Shown here: one piece after another, positions 16,595 to 26,735 of the stretch
How the letters are laid out: each line of letters starts with the position of its first letter
Numbering within the stretch: the stretch's first letter is position 1
IMG/VR virus record: IMGVR_UViG_3300003323_000672
Span: 1 to 29,645 of that record
Origin: a virus
Direction: 5' to 3' (one strand)
Length of the DNA stretch: 29,645 nt
Notes under the pieces: generated by a model
Told to the model about the DNA's origin: nothing
The model's database searches: none
What the model saw: only the letters and a program-made list of their open reading frames with translations
Program-made: the position numbers and the translations under genes

Positions 16595-18982
16595 ATGATG
16601 GCAACGGTCAACCTTGCGCCGCTGGCCAAGCAGCGCTTCGTGGACAACAACGGCAACCCGTTGGCCGGCGGAAAGGTCTTCACCTACGCCGCGGGTACCA
16701 CAACCAAGCAGGCCAGCTACACGGACTCAACTGGGAGCACGCCCAACGCCAACCCGGTGCTGCTGGACGCGCGCGGCGAGGCCTCGATCTGGCTCGACCA
16801 GTCGCTCGCCTACAAGGTGGTGATCGCACCGTCGACCGACACCGATCCACCGACGAACCCGATTTGGACGCAGGATGGCATCTCGGCGCCGATCGCGGCG
16901 GCGGCGCTCAATTCCTACATCGCACTGCTTGCCAGCGCTTCCGGTGCGCTGTCGGTGGGCTACGCGCAGTCCGGAACCGGCGCGACGACGACCACTGTTC
17001 AGGCGCGCCTGCAGCGCATCGTCGACATCGTCGATTTCGGCGGGACGCCCGACAACTCGACCGACAACTACACGCCGCTGGTCAATGCGGTGTCGCGCCT
17101 GGCCGCCGGCGGCACCCTGCGCTTTCCGTACATCGCTGGCACCGCGAACATCTACAAGTTCGTGGCGATCTCCGATTACACGAAGTTCAACAACATCGCG
17201 CTCGACGTCGAGGAGGGTGTTCAGCTCACGGCACCAGACGACACGCTGCTGTATACGGGGCTGTCGTCAAGTCGCGTTGTGCGTCCATTCAAGTTGAACA
17301 ACGCAGCTCTATCGACGACCACGTGGGTGAGCGATCGCCGAAATCGTGCGCTCGTGGCCAAGCCGGCCACGCTGAACGGCAACGACGTCGACACCGCCAT
17401 CCTCAAGTCCATCAACTGCACCACGGACCTGCAATCGAAGTTCGTCGCGTGGCCTGCCGGCGATACGTTCACGACCGAGTCGCCGACGTCAGTGGCCGCC
17501 GACAGCGTGACATGGAGCAGCCCGTCGACCGGCAACATGCACGTCTCGATGGCGCGACTGCAGCCCGGCGACGAGCTGAGTTTCTATCCCACCGGCCTGA
17601 GCGGCACGAACGTTTCGATTGTCGCCATGGTGCGGGGCGCCGGCGGCTATGCGGGCTTCTTCACCGGGCCGCTGGACACGGGCGCGGGATCGACGTCGTT
17701 CTCCAAGGCAGTCGGCTCGGGCGCCGTGAGCGGCTCGATCACCGGCTACCCGGGCCAGGGCACCCATGCGAGCTATGCCGGCGCTCGCTCGGTCTGGACG
17801 CTGCGCCTGGTCAGCTGGACGAACTTCGTGGTGCTGTTCAACGGCGTGCAGGTTTCGCAGGGCACGATCCCCGGCGGCTGGATTGAGGAGGGGGGCTTCG
17901 GCTTCTACGTCAACTCGGGCACCGGCGGCGTGACGCTGCAGGACTGGGTGATCCGCCGCAACGTGGCCGATCCCGGCATCAGCCTGCCGCTGACGATCTC
18001 CTGCTTCGGCGACTCCATCACCGCGAGCCGCTACGAGTGCTGGCCGAACTACATGCGCGAGGAGCTCGAGGGCCTTCTCGGCATGCGCGTTCCCGTCATG
18101 GCCAACAACGCCGTCAGCGGCGCCACCGCGGCGCAGCAGTACACGACGATGTCCGGCACCGGTCTCGGGGGCGCCTCGATCGTCGTGATGCTGATCGGCA
18201 CGAACGACATCCAAGCGCTCACCAGCAAGGCCTCTTTCGTCGCGACGCTCACCTCGATCCTGAGCTACTGCACCACCAACAACGCGACGCTCATCCTGGG
18301 CGTGCCGCCGCTGTTCTACACGCAGGCCCAGGCCGGCGCGCGCGGCCAGGCGTCGACGAACTACGAGCAGGGTGCCTACATCCGATCGGCGGTGGCCAAG
18401 TTCTGCGCCGACAACGCGGTCAAGTGCGTGGACCTGAACCAGGCGCTCGGCCCGATCTTGGCCAACTATGTCAACAGCGGCCTGAGCCCGTACTACGGCG
18501 CCGACATCGCCAATGACCCGATGGTCTTCGACAACATCCATCCGAGCCCGGTGATGGAGCGGCTGATCGCGCGCGCGTTCGCCAAGGCGGTGGCCGCGGT
18601 GCTCGCGACGGTCGGCACGCGGGTTCTGCCGGGCGGCATGTACCAGCCGCCGACGAACTTCAGCAACTCGGTGCTCCAGAACAGCTGGGTCTTCACGACC
18701 GAGCGGGGGCGCTGGATGTGCGACGCCGCGGGCAACGTGGAGCTGGCCGGTGTCATCGACAAGGGAACCGGATCGCTGACCAACGGCACCGTGATCATGA
18801 CGCTGCCGCGCAACCTGATCCCTAGGGACACGAAGCGCGTCTGCTGCCCGACGGACGTGCAGGCGTCGCCGTGCTTCCTCTCGGTCGACGTGCCCACCGG
18901 CAACGTCGCGATCCACGGCGTGAATGCCGGCGCGACATACATCTACCTCGACGGGCTGCACTACAGCATTCGCCAGCAATGA
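16595..18982 (+). CDS. Tail spike with SGNH-hydrolase (esterase/deacetylase) domain
   Basis: This 795-aa receptor-binding protein has several regions. The N-terminus (LAPLAKQRFVDNNGNPLAGG, then KVFTYAAGTT and LLDARGEASIWL) is a virion-attachment domain found on many podovirus spikes. A short linker with RLQRIVDIVDFGGTPDN is typical of the junction to β-helix or lectin-like regions. A middle β-sandwich-like region spans about 240-455. The SGNH hydrolase has block I GDSIT (Ser474), block III GTND (Asn537) and block V DNIHPS (Asp646, His649). A short β-rich C-terminal domain follows, possibly for trimerisation. SGNH spike domains usually remove O-acetyl groups from host O-antigen or capsule. The Ser-Asp-His triad is complete, so activity is likely. 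ATG 16595 and 16598 are both possible starts. It precedes the lysis genes. Confidence 0.88.
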   Translation: MMATVNLAPLAKQRFVDNNGNPLAGGKVFTYAAGTTTKQASYTDSTGSTPNANPVLLDARGEASIWLDQSLAYKVVIAPSTDTDPPTNPIWTQDGISAPIAAAALNSYIALLASASGALSVGYAQSGTGATTTTVQARLQRIVDIVDFGGTPDNSTDNYTPLVNAVSRLAAGGTLRFPYIAGTANIYKFVAISDYTKFNNIALDVEEGVQLTAPDDTLLYTGLSSSRVVRPFKLNNAALSTTTWVSDRRNRALVAKPATLNGNDVDTAILKSINCTTDLQSKFVAWPAGDTFTTESPTSVAADSVTWSSPSTGNMHVSMARLQPGDELSFYPTGLSGTNVSIVAMVRGAGGYAGFFTGPLDTGAGSTSFSKAVGSGAVSGSITGYPGQGTHASYAGARSVWTLRLVSWTNFVVLFNGVQVSQGTIPGGWIEEGGFGFYVNSGTGGVTLQDWVIRRNVADPGISLPLTISCFGDSITASRYECWPNYMREELEGLLGMRVPVMANNAVSGATAAQQYTTMSGTGLGGASIVVMLIGTNDIQALTSKASFVATLTSILSYCTTNNATLILGVPPLFYTQAQAGARGQASTNYEQGAYIRSAVAKFCADNAVKCVDLNQALGPILANYVNSGLSPYYGADIANDPMVFDNIHPSPVMERLIARAFAKAVAAVLATVGTRVLPGGMYQPPTNFSNSVLQNSWVFTTERGRWMCDAAGNVELAGVIDKGTGSLTNGTVIMTLPRNLIPRDTKRVCCPTDVQASPCFLSVDVPTGNVAIHGVNAGATYIYLDGLHYSIRQQ

Positions 18983-19260
18983 CCATGGACCACACCACAC
19001 TCGAAGTCGCCCTCGTCGTCTTCAACGTCGTCGTCACCCTGATCGGCGCGCTCGTGGCCTGGTTTGTTCGTTCGCTGATGTCGCGCGTCGACAAGCTCGA
19101 GGAGCAGAACCTTCGGCAGTTGGAGAGCATCTCGGCGCTGCGCACGGACATGCCAACGCACTACGTGCGCCGCGACGACTTCAGCAAGCTCGCTGACGAC
19201 ATCTTCGCCGGCATGCGCCGCATCGAGGACAAGCTCGACAGAAAGGCGGATCGGTCATGA
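18979..19260 (+). CDS. Membrane-anchored coiled-coil lysis-cassette protein
   Basis: The product (93 aa) is translated from ATG 18979, which overlaps the spike stop (ATGA). One N-terminal TM segment (LEVALVVFNVVVTLIGALVAWFV) is followed by a basic residue and a helical, coiled-coil-like tail (SRVDKLEEQNLRQLESISAL, then DDIFAGMRRIEDKLDRKAD). This layout occurs in DUF2730-like phage proteins and in some holin-associated or i-spanin-like proteins. Sitting directly before the endolysin, and overlapping it by four bases, it is probably part of lysis. A spanin role is possible, but no matching outer-membrane spanin lipoprotein is seen within or next to it. Not a typical multi-TM holin. Confidence 0.65.
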   Translation: MTMDHTTLEVALVVFNVVVTLIGALVAWFVRSLMSRVDKLEEQNLRQLESISALRTDMPTHYVRRDDFSKLADDIFAGMRRIEDKLDRKADRS

Positions 19261-19757
19261 ACTTCGATCAGGCATTCGACGCGCTCATCGGCAACGAGGG
19301 CGGCTACAGCTTCGACGCGAACGACCCGGGTGGCGAGACCATGTGGGGCGTAACGGCCCGCGTGGCGCGGCGCAACGGCTACCTCGGCGACATGAAGCTG
19401 CTGCCGCGCGAGACCGCCAAGGGCATCTACGAGCACGAGTACTGGGCGCCCGCGCGCTGCGACGAGCTGCCGGCGGCGCTGCGCTTCCAGATGTTCGACG
19501 CCGCGGTCAACTCCGGGGTGCCGCAGGCGATCCTCTGGCTGCAGCGCGCCGTCGACGTCACCGCCGACTCCTTCATCGGGCCGGCCACGATTGCCGCGGC
19601 CAAGGCGGCCGACCCCATCGTCATCGGGATCCTGTTCGACGCTCAGCGTCTGGACTTCATGACCGACCGCCCGACCTGGGGCGCCTTCGGGCGCGGCTGG
19701 GCCAAGCGCATCGCGCGCAACCTGCGAACTCTCGCCACCGAAAGGCTCGCACCATGA
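19257..19757 (+). CDS. Endolysin, GH108-type lysozyme
   Basis: The product (166 aa) cuts the glycan strands of peptidoglycan at the end of infection. Family hallmarks are the N-terminal FDALIGNEGGYSFDANDPGG, with catalytic Glu14 in NEGGY, followed by TMWGVTARVARRNGY. Downstream is EHEYWAPARCDELPAALRFQMFDAAVN, then a peptidoglycan-binding-like C-terminal helix set (ILWLQRAVDV, DSFIGPATIAAAKA). No signal peptide or signal-anchor is seen, so release depends on the holin encoded next. The start overlaps the previous stop and the stop overlaps the holin start. The length is normal for the family. Confidence 0.93.
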   Translation: MNFDQAFDALIGNEGGYSFDANDPGGETMWGVTARVARRNGYLGDMKLLPRETAKGIYEHEYWAPARCDELPAALRFQMFDAAVNSGVPQAILWLQRAVDVTADSFIGPATIAAAKAADPIVIGILFDAQRLDFMTDRPTWGAFGRGWAKRIARNLRTLATERLAP

Positions 19758-20323
19758 ACTTCAATCTGAAGACCGCACTGGGCACGATCGCGCCGACGCT
19801 GGCCACGATGCTGGGCGGCCCGTTGGCGGGCACCGCCGTCACGGCGCTGGAGAGCGCGCTGGGCCTGGCGCCGGGCAGCGGCCAGGACGCCGTCACGGCG
19901 GCCGTGGCGCAGGGCATGACGCCCGAGACGATCGCCGCGGTGCGCGCCGCCGACCAGAAACACCTCGAGGTCATGGGGCAGCAGGGCATCGATCTGGCCA
20001 AGCTCAACGCCGACTTCACGCAGTCGATGGCCAAGGTCGACGCCGACGACCGCGACAGCGCCCGCAAGCGCGAGATCGCCATCGGCGGCTGGACGACGCC
20101 GGCGCTGGCGTGGCTGGTCGTCGCCGCTTCGATCGGCCTGGGCGCGGCCGTCGTCACGGGCTACGTCTCGAAGGATCCGCAGCTCGCGACCCTCGTGGGC
20201 ACCGTGCTGGGCTACGTCTTCAGCGAGGCCAAGCAGGTGTTGGCGTACTACTTCGGTTCGAGCGCCGGCAGCGCGCGCAAGGATGAGACCATCCAGGCGC
20301 AGGCCAAGGCCGCCGGCGGCTGA
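19754..20323 (+). CDS. Holin, 3-TM family
   Basis: The product (189 aa) starts at ATG 19754, overlapping the endolysin stop (ATGA). The first hydrophobic stretch (GTIAPTLATMLGGPLAGTAVTAL) is followed by a helical hydrophilic segment (AADQKHLEVMGQQGIDLAKL, DDRDSARKREI). Two TM helices follow: TPALAWLVVAASIGLGAAVVTGYV and a segment from TLVGTVLGYVFSE onward. This is the layout of 3-TM holins first described in gene-transfer agents (GTA_holin_3TM type). It would form inner-membrane lesions that let the endolysin out. It is the last gene of the late operon, and its TGA abuts the stop of the opposing lipoprotein gene. Confidence 0.85.
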   Translation: MNFNLKTALGTIAPTLATMLGGPLAGTAVTALESALGLAPGSGQDAVTAAVAQGMTPETIAAVRAADQKHLEVMGQQGIDLAKLNADFTQSMAKVDADDRDSARKREIAIGGWTTPALAWLVVAASIGLGAAVVTGYVSKDPQLATLVGTVLGYVFSEAKQVLAYYFGSSAGSARKDETIQAQAKAAGG

Positions 20324-20998
20324 TCAGCCCGCCTCGACGCGCGCGGCCATCTGCGCGTGCCCCCAGTCGTGCGGGTGCGCGTTGACGTCCGGATTCGAGA
20401 ACTGCGGCCCGCTCGTGTAGTCGGGGTTGCCCGGCGCGCCGGCGATGTCGCCGATGGGCACGAAGCTGCCGCCCGTGCACGCGGCCTGGATGGCCGAATC
20501 GATGGCCGGCGCCGTCCACCAGGTGGACAGGCAGACCACGCGATGCGGGTGCTTGGCCGCCAGCGCCGCCATCAGCCGGCCGTAGGCCGCGCCGTACGTC
20601 GCCGGATCGGTGTGCGAGCCCGCCGCGTTGTCGCCGATCTCCAGCACGACCAGCGTCGAGCTCGTGGTCTTGGCGGCGATGCTCGCGATGACGTCGTCCG
20701 ACGTGGCCGGCAGCCGCTCGATCGGCGAGCCGTCGACTACCGACAGCGTGGCGCCGTAGTGCGCGGCGATCAGGTGCGGGAAGTCGTGCGCGGCGTCGGA
20801 TGCGGCCATGCCCCAGTTGCCGGACCAGTCGTAGACCGGGTTGGCCGACTCGTAGGCCAGGCTGTTGCCCACGACGACCACGCTGGTGACCGCGGGAGCG
20901 GGTGGCGCGGGAACGGGCGCGGGCGCGGGGCTGTCGCCGCCACCACCGCAGGCCGCCAGGAACAGGGCGGCCAGGGCCGCCAGGCGTGTGCTGAGCAT
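20324..20998 (-). CDS. SGNH/GDSL-type hydrolase lipoprotein
   Basis: This 224-aa envelope protein begins with a lipoprotein signal (MLSTRLAALAALFLAAC): n-region Arg5, hydrophobic core, lipobox LAAC with Cys17. A Gly-rich then Pro/Ala-rich tether precedes the enzyme domain. Block I reads VVVVGNSLA (Ser46), with Asn in place of the Asp of GDSL. Block III is EIGDNAA (about 120-126) and block V is DWGHAQ (Asp211, His214), so a Ser-Asp-His triad is available. Asp rather than Ser follows Cys17, which in enterobacteria favours inner-membrane retention. ATG 20998 is chosen for its signal peptide and GGGAGAG. The gene reads against the late operon, as lysogenic-conversion genes do. A role in surface glycan de-esterification or superinfection exclusion is inferred. 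Confidence 0.82.
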   Translation of the reverse strand: MLSTRLAALAALFLAACGGGGDSPAPAPVPAPPAPAVTSVVVVGNSLAYESANPVYDWSGNWGMAASDAAHDFPHLIAAHYGATLSVVDGSPIERLPATSDDVIASIAAKTTSSTLVVLEIGDNAAGSHTDPATYGAAYGRLMAALAAKHPHRVVCLSTWWTAPAIDSAIQAACTGGSFVPIGDIAGAPGNPDYTSGPQFSNPDVNAHPHDWGHAQMAARVEAG

Positions 20999-21003
20999 TC
21001 GTT

Positions 21004-21025
21004 CTCTCCCTTGTGGGCGGGAGAG
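21004..21025 (-). promoter_or_regulatory. Hairpin overlapping lipoprotein ribosome-binding site
   Basis: On the minus strand, CTCTCCC and GGGAGAG form a perfect 7-bp stem around an 8-base loop. The 3' arm is the Shine-Dalgarno sequence itself, ending five bases before the ATG at 20998. Folding would hide the ribosome-binding site. The upstream stop lies only about seven bases away, so translation of the 108-aa gene could open the hairpin (translational coupling). Confidence 0.6.
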
Positions 21026-21032
21026 TAGCCGA

Positions 21033-21359
21033 TCAGGACGCCTGCAGGAAGTCCGCCGCCGGCTCCGCGCCGTGATACACCAGCTCGCCGCGGTCGACGA
21101 ACTGCCCGAAGTTGCGCGCGGCCACGAGCGAGCCCGGGAACTGCCGCGCATAGTGGGCCACGCTCCCGTCTCCCTCGCCCTTGGCCACGCCCCAGCAGCG
21201 CATCAGGTCGGCCGCATCCATCTCGAGGGCGTATGGCGGCAGCGGGATGTCAACCGCGCCGGCCGGGATGTAGAGGTGCGGCAGCTCGTCGATCAGTTCC
21301 AGGTGCTGGCTCGTGATCGCGCGCATGTCGTCGTGGGTGGCAAGGCGGATGGTGGGCAT
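21033..21359 (-). CDS. Hypothetical protein, 108 aa, moron cassette
   Basis: I do not recognise this protein. It is hydrophilic, apparently cytosolic, α/β in character, and opens with MPTIRLATHDDMRAITSQHL. That opening resembles the first strand and helix of GNAT acetyltransferases, but the product is too short and lacks the GxGxG/A acetyl-CoA loop, so I do not call one. Other visible segments are LPHLYIPAGAVDIPLPPYALEM, YARQFPGSLVAARNFGQF and DRGELVYHGAEPAADF. It lies between the 123-aa gene and the lipoprotein gene on the same strand with short gaps, indicating one operon. Its stop is close enough to the downstream hairpin for coupling. Confidence 0.55.
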   Translation of the reverse strand: MPTIRLATHDDMRAITSQHLELIDELPHLYIPAGAVDIPLPPYALEMDAADLMRCWGVAKGEGDGSVAHYARQFPGSLVAARNFGQFVDRGELVYHGAEPAADFLQAS

Positions 21360-21372
21360 GGGGCGATCCGAT

Positions 21373-21744
21373 CTACTTCCCGGCGGCCTGGCTCTCGACG
21401 AACTCGACCCAGCCCTGCACCTTGTCAGGGTTGGCGATCAGCCATGCGCCAACCCTCGACGCCGCATCCTTGGCCCTCGCCCAGCGGCTAATGCCGGCCT
21501 TCTCGAGCACCTCGGCTGCTGCGGCCTCGGTAGCCGGCTTGGCGGCGAGGTATTCGCGCAGGATGCGCGCGATCTCCTCGGGCGGCCCGTCGAACGGAAT
21601 CGGCGCGCCGCGCTCCTCGAAGAATGTGCCCACGTTGCTTACGTGCACGCCTTCGATGTTCGCCTCGAGGTTGCTGCCGGCCGGCACCGAGATGCCTTTG
21701 TCGCAGTCGGTGATCGAGCCACCTTTGATCGTCAATCTGGCCAT
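21373..21744 (-). CDS. Hypothetical protein with β-helix-like N-terminus, 123 aa
   Basis: This is an unrecognised 123-aa protein with two parts. Residues 1-50 (LTIKGGSITDCDKGISVPAGS, then ANIEGVHVSNVGTFFEERG) show the short-strand/turn rhythm of parallel β-helix rungs. Residues 55-123 look helical (PPEEIARILREYLAAKPATEAAAAEVLEKAG, then a Trp-containing segment ending EFVESQAAGK). A GGGAGG ribosome-binding site precedes ATG 21744 and follows closely on the stop of the 47-aa gene. No signal peptide, TM segment or catalytic motif is seen. A structural or protein-binding role in lysogen physiology is possible, but nothing in the sequence fixes it. Confidence 0.55.
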   Translation of the reverse strand: MARLTIKGGSITDCDKGISVPAGSNLEANIEGVHVSNVGTFFEERGAPIPFDGPPEEIARILREYLAAKPATEAAAAEVLEKAGISRWARAKDAASRVGAWLIANPDKVQGWVEFVESQAAGK

Positions 21745-21759
21745 GTGCCCTCCCGATAT

Positions 21760-21903
21760 TCAGCGTGGGTTTTGGCGTAGCTTTTCCTGCCACGCCTTGA
21801 ATCTCACTGCAAGAATACCCTGCTGCATCATCGGGGTATGACCCCCCGAGATTTCGTTCTCTGACTGGCTCATCCTACGATCCACCGCCTTGAGACAGTC
21901 CAT
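21760..21903 (-). CDS. Small hypothetical protein, 47 aa
   Basis: A short reading frame starts at ATG 21903 and ends 15 bases before the ATG of the 123-aa gene, whose ribosome-binding site lies between them. The peptide reads MDCLKAVDRRMSQSENEISG, then a middle with two Met, and a basic helical end (VRFKAWQEKLRQNPR). Composition is protein-like and less GC-biased than the shadows. The frame stays open for about 23 codons upstream (including KFARVHM at the junction) back to a TAG inside the palindrome. The real start could therefore lie upstream at a rare codon, or this could be the end of a degraded gene. No clear Shine-Dalgarno precedes ATG 21903. It would lead the moron operon. Confidence 0.4.
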   Translation of the reverse strand: MDCLKAVDRRMSQSENEISGGHTPMMQQGILAVRFKAWQEKLRQNPR

Positions 21904-21970
21904 GTGAACCCGTGCGAATTTGCCGGCATCCAGACCGGCGGCGTGGGTTTTACATCGACTGAGCCCTGAA

Positions 21971-21989
21971 ACCTACGCCGAGCGTAGGT
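21971..21989. promoter_or_regulatory. Perfect 19-base palindrome upstream of integrase
   Basis: ACCTACGC and GCGTAGGT are exact inverted copies around a CGA centre. The element lies in the divergent gap between the moron operon (-) and integrase (+), 38 bases before the integrase ATG. It is suited as a dimer-binding operator or as part of the attP/recombination region. An intrinsic-terminator role is unlikely, since no T tract follows on either strand. Confidence 0.5.
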
Positions 21990-22026
21990 CGTGGGTGAGA
22001 TTCGAGAGGAATTCAGAGGGGGGAAC

Positions 22027-23304
22027 ATGCAGTTTGACGTGCGCGCCGCCAAGGCGCTGAGGGTCGGGGAACACCTGATTATCCCCGGCGCGCCCGGGCT
22101 GAGATTGGAAGCGACGCAGACGACCCGGACGTTCGTCTACCGCTACAAGAGCCCGCTCGACGGGCGCATGAAGCAGATCAAGATCGGGGCCTGGCCCGCC
22201 ACCAGCGCGGCGCAAGCCGGCGTCGAGTGGGAGAAGCTGCGCGGCGAGCGCGAGCGCGGCGGCTGCCCGGCGACGTCGCGACGCCAGGCGCGTCACATCG
22301 CGGCCGTCGAGAAGCGCCAAGAGCGCGTCGGGCCGGTCGAGACGGTGGGCGAGCTGCTCGACCTCTACGCTGCCGCGGCGGCGTCCAAGCGCGCCGCCAA
22401 GGGGATGGCCGAGCTGGCCGGGGTCTTCCGACGCCACATCACGCCGGCCTTCCGCGCGATGCCACCGGCGCGCGTGACGCGCGCGGTCGCGTTCGACCTC
22501 ATCAATAGCAAGCGCGAGACGCCGGTCGAGGCGGCAAACCTACGCCGGGAGCTGGGCGCCGCGTGGGAATTCGGCCACGACGCCGGGCGCCTGGACGAGG
22601 ACGTGCCCAACTGGTGGCGTCAGGTTCTGCGGGGCAAGCTCAAGAGCAAGGGCCGCAAGATCCGCGGCGAGAACGTTGGCAGCACGAAGCGCGTGCTCTC
22701 GCTCGAGGAGGTCGGCGCGGTGATCCGCTTCCTGCCTGAGACGACGACGCTGGTGTCCGACCTGCTGACGCTGTACCTGTGGACGGGCTGCCGCGGTGCC
22801 GAGCTCGTGCAGATGGAGGGCGCCGAGCTCACGGACGATGCTGGCGTGCTGTGGTGGCGGCTGCCGAAGTCCAAGGTCAAGATGCGCAGCCACGAGCTGG
22901 CCGACGACTTGTGGATCCCGCTGCTGGGCCGAGCGCGCGAGATCGCGCTGCGTCGGCTGGAACGGTTCGGGCTGGGCTACCTGTTCCCGGTGGCGCGCGG
23001 CCGGGCGCCGCACGTCGAGCAGAAGGTGGTCGGGGTGGCCGTCTGGCAACACCACGCGGCGTGCGGCAGCCGGCCAGAGGTGCCGCGCGCGCGCTGGCCG
23101 ATCCCGCACTGGTCGCCGCACGACCTGCGCCGCACGGTGCGCACGCATCTGGCGCGGCTGAAGTGCCCGGGCGATATCGCCGAGGCGGTGCTGGGGCACA
23201 TCGACGTCGACGAGGACGTCTACGATCGCCACGACTACCGCGCGGAGCGGCTGGAGTGGCTCGGCAAGCTCACGGCCGCCTGGGAAGCGGCCGCTCGTCG
23301 CTGA
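22027..23304 (+). CDS. int: Tyrosine-family integrase, P4-like
   Basis: The product (425 aa) mediates site-specific phage integration and excision. The N-terminal arm-type DNA-binding domain (GLRLEATQTTRTFVYRYKSP, then GRMKQIKIGAWPATSAAQA) is of the DUF4102 type found in P4-like integrases. The core-binding helices follow, and then the catalytic domain. Active-site residues are Arg256 in WTGCRGAEL, Lys near LPKSKVKMR (281-285), His365 and Arg368 in SPHDLRRT, His391 in LGHID, and Tyr399 (or Tyr404) in EDVYDRHDY. I chose ATG 22027 over the upstream in-frame start at 21991, because it follows GAGGGGGG by four bases and matches usual family N-termini. The 3' end overlaps the excisionase-like gene by 35 bases tail to tail. 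Catalytically complete. Confidence 0.93.
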   Translation: MQFDVRAAKALRVGEHLIIPGAPGLRLEATQTTRTFVYRYKSPLDGRMKQIKIGAWPATSAAQAGVEWEKLRGERERGGCPATSRRQARHIAAVEKRQERVGPVETVGELLDLYAAAAASKRAAKGMAELAGVFRRHITPAFRAMPPARVTRAVAFDLINSKRETPVEAANLRRELGAAWEFGHDAGRLDEDVPNWWRQVLRGKLKSKGRKIRGENVGSTKRVLSLEEVGAVIRFLPETTTLVSDLLTLYLWTGCRGAELVQMEGAELTDDAGVLWWRLPKSKVKMRSHELADDLWIPLLGRAREIALRRLERFGLGYLFPVARGRAPHVEQKVVGVAVWQHHAACGSRPEVPRARWPIPHWSPHDLRRTVRTHLARLKCPGDIAEAVLGHIDVDEDVYDRHDYRAERLEWLGKLTAAWEAAARR

Positions 23305-23494
23305 CGGGCAGCTCGCGCGCCGCGGCCTGCAGTTCCTCGACGAGCCAGGTCGAGCGCGCGCCGATCTTGCGCGGCTTGGGCAGGTCGCCGCGGCTCACGC
23401 GCTCCAGGAAGGTGGAGCGGCCGATGCCGAACATGGCGGCCGCCGTCTCGACGTCGACGGCGATGGGCTGGGGTGGCATGGTCAAGGTTGTCAT
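23270..23494 (-). CDS. AlpA/excisionase-like helix-turn-helix protein
   Basis: The product (74 aa) has the MerR/AlpA-type winged-helix layout: a strand (PIAVDVETAAAMFGIGRSTF) containing the HTH, then ERVSRGDLPKPRKIGARSTW, where KPRKIG-x-R-x-x-W is the wing signature, and a C-terminal helix (LVEELQAAAREL). Such proteins act as excisionases or regulators of integrase transcription. It is the last gene of the leftward operon. Its ATG follows the upstream TGA directly (TGAATG), and its 3' end overlaps the integrase 3' end by 35 bases. Convergent, overlapping int/xis supports an excision-regulating role. ATG at 23479 (MPPQP) is an alternative start. Confidence 0.82.
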   Translation of the reverse strand: MTTLTMPPQPIAVDVETAAAMFGIGRSTFLERVSRGDLPKPRKIGARSTWLVEELQAAARELPVSDERPLPRRP

Positions 23495-23781: not shown

Positions 23782-25026
23782 TCAGGCTGCCTCCTGCAGC
23801 TCGTAGTCGGAGTAGTTCGCGGCGACGATCGCGCGCGCCAGCTTCGGGCACACGCTGTTGCCGCACATCCGCACCTGGTCGCTCTTCGTGAGCGTGATGC
23901 GCCGGCCGGTCTCGGGCTCGATGCCCCACTCGATGATGTAGCTGTCGGGGAAGCCCTGGGCCCGGAACAGCTCGCGGGGCTGCAGCATGCGCATGCCGAT
24001 GTCGGCGATGACGTAGTCCTGGCCGGCGACCGTCACGATGGCGAAGCGGTCGCGCGTCGTCGCGGTGGGCAACGGGTTGGTGAGCTGCGCATCCTGCTCG
24101 GTGCCGTAGTACGCCAGCAGCAGCGCGCGCACCTCGGCGTGGTGCCAGCCGCCGGCGTGGATCGTGCGCAGCGGTTCCTCGTCGACGGCGTGCACGCGCC
24201 GCCCAGCGCGGTCGCGGTGCTCGCCATGCGCCAGGCCCACGATGAACGGCTTCTGCGCGGTCACCACGTAGCGCCAGACGCCGTGCGCGATGCGGCGCAT
24301 GGTCGCCGGCGCCAGCGGGCGCGCGCGCTCGAAGATGCTCGGGCACGGGAGCGACCAGTCGATGCACTCGGCCGCGGTGCGGTACGGGCGCAGGCCCGGG
24401 CCGTTGGTGGGCTCCGGCCAGACGATCGGACCCGTGCCGCGCTTCTTCGCGACCATGAACAGGCGCTTGCGCGTCGTCGGCGTGTCGTAATCCGCGGCCA
24501 CGAGCTCGCGGAACTCGACGTCGTAGCCCGGGCCGGTCCGCTGCAGCTGCAGCACGAAGCGGCGGAACGTCTTGCCGCGGCGCGCGGCGCACGGGCGGCC
24601 GGCCACCACGGGCCCCCAGTTCCGGAACTCGGGAATGTTCTCGAGGAAGATCGCGTCGGGTTCGACCTGCGCGGCCCACTTGATGACGACCCACGCCAGG
24701 CTGCGCACGCGGTCGCTGACCGGCGCGCCGCCCTTGGCGGGGCTGAAGTGGCGGCAGTCCGGCGAGGCCCACAGCGCGCCGACGCCGCGGCCGCCGAACC
24801 GGGCGACGATCGAGCGCGGCTCGACGTCCCACACGTTCGTGCGCAGGTGCAGCGTCTGCGGGTGGTTCGCCTGGTGCATCGCCAGGGCCTTCGGATCGTG
24901 GTTGATCGCGACGTCGACGTGACGGCCGATCGCCTGCTCGATGCCCGTCGACGCACCGCCGCCGCCGGCGAACAGGTCGACGACGATCTTGGTGGCCAGC
25001 GGCAGGATGAACTGCGGCGCGAGCAT
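23782..25026 (-). CDS. DNA (cytosine-5) methyltransferase
   Basis: The product (414 aa) transfers methyl from S-adenosylmethionine to cytosine C5. Motif I is DLFAGGGGASTG (about 17-28). Motif IV is ASPDCRHFSPAKGG with catalytic Cys91, preceded by Asp where classical enzymes have Pro-Cys. Motif VI is LENIPE (Glu129). Motif VIII is TPTTRKRLFMVA with R-x-R-type residues (185-187). Motif X has CGNSVCP near the C-terminus. The region between motifs VIII and X (PSIFERARPLAPATMRRI onward) would hold the target-recognition domain. No restriction enzyme partner is visible, so it is probably an orphan enzyme shielding phage DNA from host restriction. Start ATG 25026 lies three bases from the upstream stop. 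Confidence 0.92.
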   Translation of the reverse strand: MLAPQFILPLATKIVVDLFAGGGGASTGIEQAIGRHVDVAINHDPKALAMHQANHPQTLHLRTNVWDVEPRSIVARFGGRGVGALWASPDCRHFSPAKGGAPVSDRVRSLAWVVIKWAAQVEPDAIFLENIPEFRNWGPVVAGRPCAARRGKTFRRFVLQLQRTGPGYDVEFRELVAADYDTPTTRKRLFMVAKKRGTGPIVWPEPTNGPGLRPYRTAAECIDWSLPCPSIFERARPLAPATMRRIAHGVWRYVVTAQKPFIVGLAHGEHRDRAGRRVHAVDEEPLRTIHAGGWHHAEVRALLLAYYGTEQDAQLTNPLPTATTRDRFAIVTVAGQDYVIADIGMRMLQPRELFRAQGFPDSYIIEWGIEPETGRRITLTKSDQVRMCGNSVCPKLARAIVAANYSDYELQEAA

Positions 25027-25487: not shown

Positions 25488-26735
25488 TCAGTCTCCGAAC
25501 AGCAGCGGCTGGACTGCGCCGTTCTGGTAGACCACCGGCAGGACGGTGTCCGCGCGCGGCTCGTCGCCCTCCCAGCCGTTCGGCCAGGTTTCCAGCGCCA
25601 CGAGCTCGCGGATGCGCGCCTCCTCGGCGACGTTGATCAGGTCGATCAACGGGCGACCCGAAGCCGCTGCCGCGGCGTTGCATTCCGCCTGGATCTGCAG
25701 CACGCGCTCGAGCCCCATCAAGCGGGCGTCGAACGTGAGCGGGCCCATGCGTTGCGGGTTCTTGCCGATCGACCCGTCCTTCAGCCGCTCGATGCCGGCC
25801 TTCTTCAGGCGGTACTGAGGGAGGCGTAGCTCTCGCCACAGCGGTTTGATGCCGCGCAGCGGCGCCAGGTAGGCCCAGGCCGGCATCGCCAACACCGCCT
25901 CGAGCGCCTTCTCCTCCTGGGCGAGCGGGCAACCGATGCAGCCCGTGCGCGCGTTGATCTCCTCGGCCTCGTCGCCGCCGTAGGCGTCAGCGATCATGGC
26001 CGTCGACCAGTCGCCGAACTCGGCGCCTGGCGCCCAGTGTTTCAGCCACTCCCACACGTGGCAGACGCGCCAGTGCAGCAGCGGTGCGAGCGTCGCGATG
26101 CGTCCACGAAGCCCCTTCGCATTGGGCAGCACCTGCTGATACCAGCCCTGCCCGCACTCGGCACCGTCCTTGCTGCATGACATCTCGATCCTGCGGTCGC
26201 GGATCGCGCTCTCGCCCTGCCGCACGCCGGTGATCATGAGGATGTTGCCCTCGAGCTCGGCGAGACGCGCCTCGAGCGCGCGCTGCATCGGCTCGATCTT
26301 GATCTGGCTGGTGCACCAACGAAGCGTGTTGTTGTTGGGCGGAGGCACACCGCGGCCCAGGATGTAGACCATGAAGCGGTCGTCCATCGGGGCCGTTACG
26401 ACCTCGACGCGGATGCCGCGCTCGGCAAGCTCGTCCATGACGTGCTGCGCAGCGATGGCCAGCGGCGGCAACTCCTGGCGGGTGTCCGCGTAGAAGACCG
26501 TCAGCGTCTCGGGCTTGGCGATGCGGCCGGCGTCTAGCAGCCAGCAAAGTAGCGTCAGCGTCGCCGTGCTGTCCTTGCCGCCGGACCATGCGATGCCCCA
26601 GTGCGGATGATCGGCGCCGTACGCCTGTAGCGACTGGATCGTGAGCTCGATGCTCTCCGTCATCTGCAGCCGCTGGCCTCCATCGAAGAAGGAGGCCTGG
26701 CGCACGCGCGCGTCCGATGCAGGGCGGTGCAGCAT
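25488..26735 (-). CDS. DndC/PAPS-reductase-like PP-loop ATP pyrophosphatase
   Basis: The product (415 aa) has the PP-loop SGGKDS (51-56), which binds ATP and adenylates the substrate. FYADTRQELPPL and GRGVPPPNNNT follow, then RWCTSQIKIEPM (Cys141), a pattern seen in DndC and phage PAPS-reductase-like proteins. Further Cys at 187, 194, 225, 266 and 269 (GCIGCPL) could hold an Fe-S cluster, as in DndC. DndC helps place sulfur in the DNA backbone (phosphorothioation). Here no dndA, B, D or E neighbour is visible, so the product may borrow host sulfur donors or do another thiolation. ATG 26735 lies two bases after the previous stop; Met25 is an alternative start. The family is secure; the exact reaction is not. 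Confidence 0.88.
   Translation of the reverse strand: MLHRPASDARVRQASFFDGGQRLQMTESIELTIQSLQAYGADHPHWGIAWSGGKDSTATLTLLCWLLDAGRIAKPETLTVFYADTRQELPPLAIAAQHVMDELAERGIRVEVVTAPMDDRFMVYILGRGVPPPNNNTLRWCTSQIKIEPMQRALEARLAELEGNILMITGVRQGESAIRDRRIEMSCSKDGAECGQGWYQQVLPNAKGLRGRIATLAPLLHWRVCHVWEWLKHWAPGAEFGDWSTAMIADAYGGDEAEEINARTGCIGCPLAQEEKALEAVLAMPAWAYLAPLRGIKPLWRELRLPQYRLKKAGIERLKDGSIGKNPQRMGPLTFDARLMGLERVLQIQAECNAAAAASGRPLIDLINVAEEARIRELVALETWPNGWEGDEPRADTVLPVVYQNGAVQPLLFGD

Follow-up and report, generated by a model that had tools for sequence, protein, structure and literature searches.

The window analysed here, which spans an entire 29,645-base virus record that is itself a fragment, carries a gene that most plausibly encodes a lysogenic-conversion esterase removing O-acyl, probably O-acetyl, groups from envelope glycans, a reading to which we give a probability of about one half. 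The gene is intact, and its product combines a lipobox with an SGNH fold and conserved Ser, Asn and His residues. Additionally, the gene lies in a conversion slot in which it exchanges with an O-acyltransferase gene. Its portal, which among the phage collection matches that of Xanthomonas phage PBR31 best (49%), assigns the window to a P22-like temperate podovirus.

The gene spans positions 20324-20998 on the minus strand, with an ATG at 20998 and a stop at 20326-20324, and encodes 224 residues; a sequence-only reading of the window had given it exactly these limits and had described its product as bearing a lipobox, which is indeed present (LAAC, with Cys17). A strong ribosome-binding site, AAGGGAGAGAACGAATG, precedes the ATG. 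The N-terminus of the product, MLSTRLAALAALFLAAC followed by GGGGDS, displays the Sec/SPII layout of a positive n-region, a hydrophobic h-region and a lipobox Cys (MLSTR-LAALAALFLAA-C17). Specifically, the lipoprotein signal (20948-20998, −) comprises residues 1-16 with the lipobox LAA and the lipidated Cys17 (codon 20950-20948), so that L14-A15-A16-C17 form the lipobox, followed by a Gly at +2, a Pro/Ala linker and a domain that begins at about residue 38. By the Lol rule of E. coli, the Gly at +2 suggests sorting to the outer membrane. In the NCBIfam profile search, a lipoprotein-tail model matched the signal and linker alone and is uninformative. A scan of positions 19000-23400 detected no sigma-70-like promoter, a weak test outside enterics, and neither an Rfam match nor a tRNA was found.

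The gene faces the late genes, as the sequence-only reading had said. The endolysin gene (19257-19757, +; Glyco_hydro_108, E=9.4e-27) is followed by the last late gene (19754-20323, +), which encodes a putative holin-like membrane protein of 189 aa conserved in L006, L007, L182 and other relatives. At the tail-to-tail junction (20318-20329), the late-gene stop TGA (20321-20323) abuts the lipoprotein stop (TCA, 20324-20326), and both stops lie inside a perfect 12-bp palindrome, GGCTGATCAGCC; the junction has no room for separate terminators. Upstream of the lipoprotein gene and in the same direction lie two ORFs without a family match, one of 108 aa that is possibly co-transcribed with it (21033-21359, −) and one of 123 aa that is a possible first gene of the cassette (21373-21744, −). 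A tyrosine integrase gene (21991-23304, +; Phage_integrase, Arm-DNA-bind_3), with a homologue in L037, bounds the slot, giving the order late gene (+), SGNH gene (−), two ORFs (−) and integrase (+). Beyond it, the early region of the window encodes, as read by eye, a putative PAPS-reductase/DndC-like protein (25488-26735, −) and a DNA cytosine methyltransferase (23782-25026, −).

The position between late genes and integrase, on the strand opposite the late genes, is that of Oac in Shigella phage Sf6, in which a tail spike gene (+) is followed by oac (−) and the integrase gene (−). The earlier suggestion that the lipoprotein gene stands in the place of lysogenic-conversion genes is thus upheld by the matching site and orientation, and also by the O-acyltransferase gene in the slot of the nearest relative. 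Pfam finds no Acyl_transf_3 domain in the window protein, which is an SGNH lipoprotein instead. In L006, the nearest relative found (endolysin 76%), which has the same last late gene, an Acyl_transf_3 gene (L006:7068-8033, −; E=5.7e-26, above the cut-off) abuts the holin-like late gene stop to stop and occupies the exact slot of the window's SGNH lipoprotein. In L037, whose integrase is related, about 250 bp separate the late gene from the integrase gene, compared with 1,667 in the window. The acyltransferase in L006 and the near-empty slot in L037 indicate that the module in the slot is an exchangeable cassette. Elsewhere among the relatives, the slot is empty or is occupied by small genes of unrelated kinds, so that the slot alone is no proof of glycan editing; across these genomes it is best described as a general cargo site, not one reserved for glycan editing. 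A search that started from the last late gene yielded two new loci only, and inspection by eye recognised no esterase or acyltransferase gene beside either.

These comparisons bear on whether the protein is a lysis helper, that is, a late-made hydrolase of the cell wall or membrane that aids lysis, as the authors of the PBR31 paper suggested for gp40 (PMC10975493). The SGNH gene does adjoin endolysin and holin-like genes in the window, in PBR31 and in Burkholderia phage Magia, and TesA/lysophospholipase L1 is among the top structural matches of the window protein. We nevertheless consider a lysis role improbable: the gene lies on the opposite strand, stop against stop with the late operon, an arrangement in which late read-through transcription would be antisense to it, and relatives whose endolysin and late gene are related to those of the window have a near-empty slot or an acyltransferase in its place, which indicates that the SGNH gene is not needed for lysis. 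In PBR31, gp40 (L003:26930-27577, −) is an SGNH lipoprotein gene placed after the lysis genes and before the integrase gene, i.e. in the same slot. Published readings of gp40 conflict, in that the GenBank note gives a possible O-antigen modification and the paper the lysis helper; the slot comparison favours the GenBank note.

The assignment of the window protein to the SGNH hydrolases draws on its modelled structure and its conserved residues. Pfam PF13472 (Lipase_GDSL_2) matches it at E=2.7e-5 with 25.2 bits, under the curated cut-off of 32.9, and a sequence search of solved structures gave no match. An AlphaFold2 model, built from a seven-row alignment (mean pLDDT 69.7), obtained 20 Foldseek matches at E<1e-3, and VIA-align placed SGNH/GDSL enzymes at the top. 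The entries 3rjt and 4m8k score Z 13.1 over 164 residues, and acetylxylan esterases, TesA and family-2 carbohydrate esterases come just behind. In the model, the protein has the three-layer α/β/α fold of SGNH hydrolases. Because the structure matches tie within 1-2 Z units, the fold names no substrate.

Block I of the protein reads GNS (G44-N45-S46), as had been noted from the sequence before, and contains the presumed nucleophile Ser46 (20861-20863, −), identified from sequence and alignment. Block III reads GDN (G122-D123-N124), with Asn124 at 20627-20629 (−). The presumed catalytic His208 (HPHD; 20375-20377, −) lies within a C-terminal HPxDxG motif as the block V His and is placed by the alignment, the model having pLDDT <50 here. 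The block V Asp (DxxH) is absent: Val205 stands at −3 from His208, Asp204 at −4 is not conserved, and the subfamily as a whole is without an Asp at −3. Some SGNH enzymes function with a Ser-His pair, and the block V Asp is not invariant across the superfamily; membership is therefore founded on the fold together with the Ser, Asn and His residues. Catalysis may rely on a Ser-His pair or on another acid.

In an alignment of 23 rows, comprising the window protein and 22 homologous domains from bacteria (Granulicella, Verrucomicrobia), all members have the DWSGNWGMAAS signature in common, and W58, G63, A65, A66, D72, H75, N124, W161, P209 and G213 are invariant in every row. Signature and invariant residues shared with 22 bacterial domains show that the ORF is not a chance one. 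Ser46 and His208 are kept throughout the subfamily except in tandem paralogues without one or both, which look inactive from their sequences. Tandem pairs of this DW-GNWGMA subfamily occur in Verrucomicrobia (L076, L078, L079, L080 and L084), where one copy is without the catalytic Ser and/or His, and it is possible that they are pairs of an enzyme and a pseudoenzyme.

The closest known homologue, WP_157478236.1 of Granulicella tundricola (41%; L072:5818-6552, +), is encoded on plasmid pACIX902 directly ahead of a Wzi capsule-assembly gene, three glycosyltransferase genes and a Wzz-type gene. The frame upstream of its annotated start holds a lipoprotein signal, MPRTRPHTPRRYAKLAACSALVFLNGC, with the lipobox LNGC; this start is probably too late, and the protein is probably a lipoprotein as well. 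The verrucomicrobial homologues are scattered, occurring in 13 of the 195 genomes sampled across the phylum, and their neighbours reveal no clear polysaccharide-export context. Clear polysaccharide-export genes stand beside one homologue only. Taken together, the enzyme class and the context of the closest homologue point to esters of surface glycans. An Ape-like peptidoglycan O-acetylesterase, which would trim O-acetyl groups from the wall and thereby alter host physiology or enable a lysozyme-like endolysin, would fit the periplasm-facing anchor, and the SGNH enzymes Ape1 and PatB are among the structural matches (Z about 11.4-11.5). However, both rank under many carbohydrate acetylesterases within the broad tie, and the closest homologue belongs to an exopolysaccharide cluster and not with wall genes; a peptidoglycan substrate is accordingly an outside prospect.

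Searched against the phage collection, the window protein had no match beyond chance, and a DNA pattern for the DW-GNWGMA signature had none in IMG/VR contigs; the lipoprotein therefore looks rare in phages. SGNH lipoproteins of other kinds are found in several phages. PBR31, a related podovirus, has in gp40 an SGNH lipoprotein that shares the slot of the window protein, but gp40 belongs to another SGNH subfamily, with a GDST block I, and gives no blastp match to the window protein at E≤10. In Magia, the SGNH lipoprotein gp029, an outer-membrane-associated lipid esterase, faces the lysis genes from the opposite strand, as in the window, but is of yet another subfamily and adjoins an Acyl_transf_3 gene, and the tail type of Magia differs (baseplate and tape-measure genes). 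L002 and G202 carry SGNH lipoproteins elsewhere in the genome. The G202 protein (L177:4545-5318, +; 257 aa from the first ATG, lipobox VAGC) is very diverged and has an early-region position, and the endolysin of that phage is 63% like the window's. In record G201, an Acyl_transf_3 gene is followed by a membrane-anchored SGNH gene, the two (together L176:264-2101, +) facing the late genes. An ORF that by eye reads as an ISL3-type transposase (L176:2144-3571) separates this pair from the late genes, and the pair could be phage cargo or host flank.

In the tree, the window protein and Granulicella form one group (97/99), and another unites PBR31, Magia and L002 (88/95). Under the AU test, monophyly of the five phage SGNH lipoproteins is rejected (p-AU 0.0013, a value to be taken with care given the long branches), and a single origin of these proteins was discarded on this result. 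The long branches leave the exact number of captures unsure while making a single capture unlikely; from the sequences, phages have probably captured SGNH lipoproteins more than once, independently. This recurrence in similar late-end positions, and the exchange with an O-acyltransferase, are hard to square with neutral cargo, i.e. a general lipase or thioesterase or a nutrient-scavenging esterase. SGNH folds are broad, the nearest structures include TesA and many lipases, and the neighbours of the verrucomicrobial homologues, without a clear polysaccharide-export context, also fit such an enzyme, which we rate as the least probable of the alternatives.

The acyltransferase neighbours in Magia and G201 make a partner transferase the most serious rival to the esterase, although still an unlikely one. 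In such a system, the SGNH protein would take an acyl group from a membrane acyltransferase of host or phage and load it onto a surface glycan, in the manner of OafA- or PatA/PatB-type systems. SGNH proteins act as transferases in MBOAT-SGNH systems (PMC12148441), and an SGNH domain forms part of AT3-SGNH proteins (PMC9558356). On the other hand, neither the window's slot nor PBR31 has a recognisable acyltransferase, and the window subfamily differs from those of Magia and G201. The record of the window being a fragment, an acyltransferase gene may lie elsewhere in the genome. Co-occurrence of Acyl_transf_3 and SGNH genes was tallied in 48 records but not used as statistics, since PBR31 and Magia had been picked for their SGNH genes.

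The sequence-only reading had called the lipoprotein the second SGNH enzyme of this phage, rightly, as an SGNH domain is clearly present in the tail spike (16595-18982, +), at residues 470-652 (PF13472, E=3.7e-16; with GDSIT, GTND and DNIH). The lipoprotein and the spike domain gave no blastp match to each other (E≤10, database size 1e7), and paralogy by recent copying was thereby excluded. The same reading had gone on to suggest a self-exclusion circuit of spike and lipoprotein. For a dedicated circuit, the relatives offer no support, the two not being a conserved pair. PBR31 has a P22-like spike of the pectate-lyase type (PMC10975493) and still carries an SGNH lipoprotein; in L006, which has the acyltransferase, a profile scan of relatives found no SGNH spike; and two further relatives, partly fragments, show one SGNH match, within a long frame of tail type, with neither an Acyl_transf_3 nor a second SGNH match. 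Because the pairing is not general, the circuit is a fair hypothesis for the window phage and not an established feature of the group. Self-exclusion itself is plausible, since the spike is of SGNH type and phages with such spikes can need O-acetylated receptors. G7C, which has a deacetylase spike, does not infect hosts without O-acetylation (PMC10743462); phages that share the window's spike could therefore be kept out by an esterase that the lysogen makes. In Sf6, the resident Oac shuts out further Sf6 (PMC9558356). That the lipoprotein strips the ester needed by incoming particles is therefore a plausible proposal.

We propose that the prophage would make the SGNH esterase during lysogeny and that, once exported and with a lipid attached at Cys17, the enzyme would reach the outer membrane and sit on its inner, periplasmic side. 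Acting by hydrolysis and not by transfer, it would take O-acyl groups, most likely O-acetyl, off envelope glycans in the periplasm, before or during their export, the substrate presumably being O-antigen or capsule en route to the surface. The surface of the lysogen would become de-acylated, and the host surface would thus be altered while the virus is dormant. One likely benefit would be poorer adsorption of phages that need the acylated form, including the phage's own kind if its SGNH spike is a deacetylase. Points against this explanation are the negative promoter scan, the missing block V Asp, the varied contents of the slot, the single homologue with clear polysaccharide-export neighbours, and the periplasmic location, which would require action before the polymer is exported.

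Like Sf6 Oac, which lies on the opposite strand against the late-gene end and before the integrase, the window protein would act on O-acyl groups of surface glycans. Unlike it, the window protein is an SGNH lipoprotein of another fold and location and is expected to remove acetyl, whereas Sf6 Oac is an Acyl_transf_3 O-antigen acetylase, integral to the inner membrane, that adds acetyl and brings about serotype conversion and self-exclusion. Phage esterases that act on O-acetylated surface polysaccharides include G7C gp63.1, PP99 gp55 and SGNH fibres of Klebsiella prophages (PMC10743462, PMC6989608, PMC13123978). By domain, the window's own spike belongs with the deacetylase tail spikes; these are virion parts, in contrast to the lipoprotein, which is envelope-anchored and without a virion-attachment domain. 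In Serratia phage BZS1, a deacetylase tail protein occurs together with an Oac encoded on the other strand, and the authors of that study propose exclusion (PMC7556043). The window likewise pairs a deacetylase-type spike with a putative conversion enzyme on the opposite strand, but the resident enzyme of BZS1 adds acetyl and that of the window would remove it. Ltp of Streptococcus phage TP-J34 is not an SGNH enzyme, and its host is Gram-positive. Ltp-type superinfection-exclusion lipoproteins resemble the window protein in strategy and in nothing more, the Ltp of TP-J34 being prophage-encoded and protecting the lysogen (PMC3952083).

The phage conversions of this sort that are known add acetyl or glucose to the O-antigen, and epsilon15 is thought to inhibit acetylation (PMC9558356). 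A search of the freely accessible literature returned no resident phage esterase shown to remove acetyl or to work in lysogeny. Deacetylase spikes, Oac conversion genes and their combination in BZS1 (PMC7556043) are already known; the window differs in that its Oac slot is occupied by a resident enzyme that is anchored in the envelope and expected to have the opposite chemistry. More tentatively, temperate phages may on several occasions have taken up envelope-anchored SGNH esterases that act as a reverse Oac, such that the prophage de-acetylates a surface polymer of its host and, where the spike is a deacetylase that requires acetyl, removes the receptor and leads to self-exclusion. The slot argument also provides a simple gene finder, namely inspection of the opposite strand between the late genes and the integrase. 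If the esterase reading is true, prophages can both add acetyl groups to the host surface and remove them, with consequences for serotyping, for the prediction of host range and for the selection of phages with deacetylase spikes.
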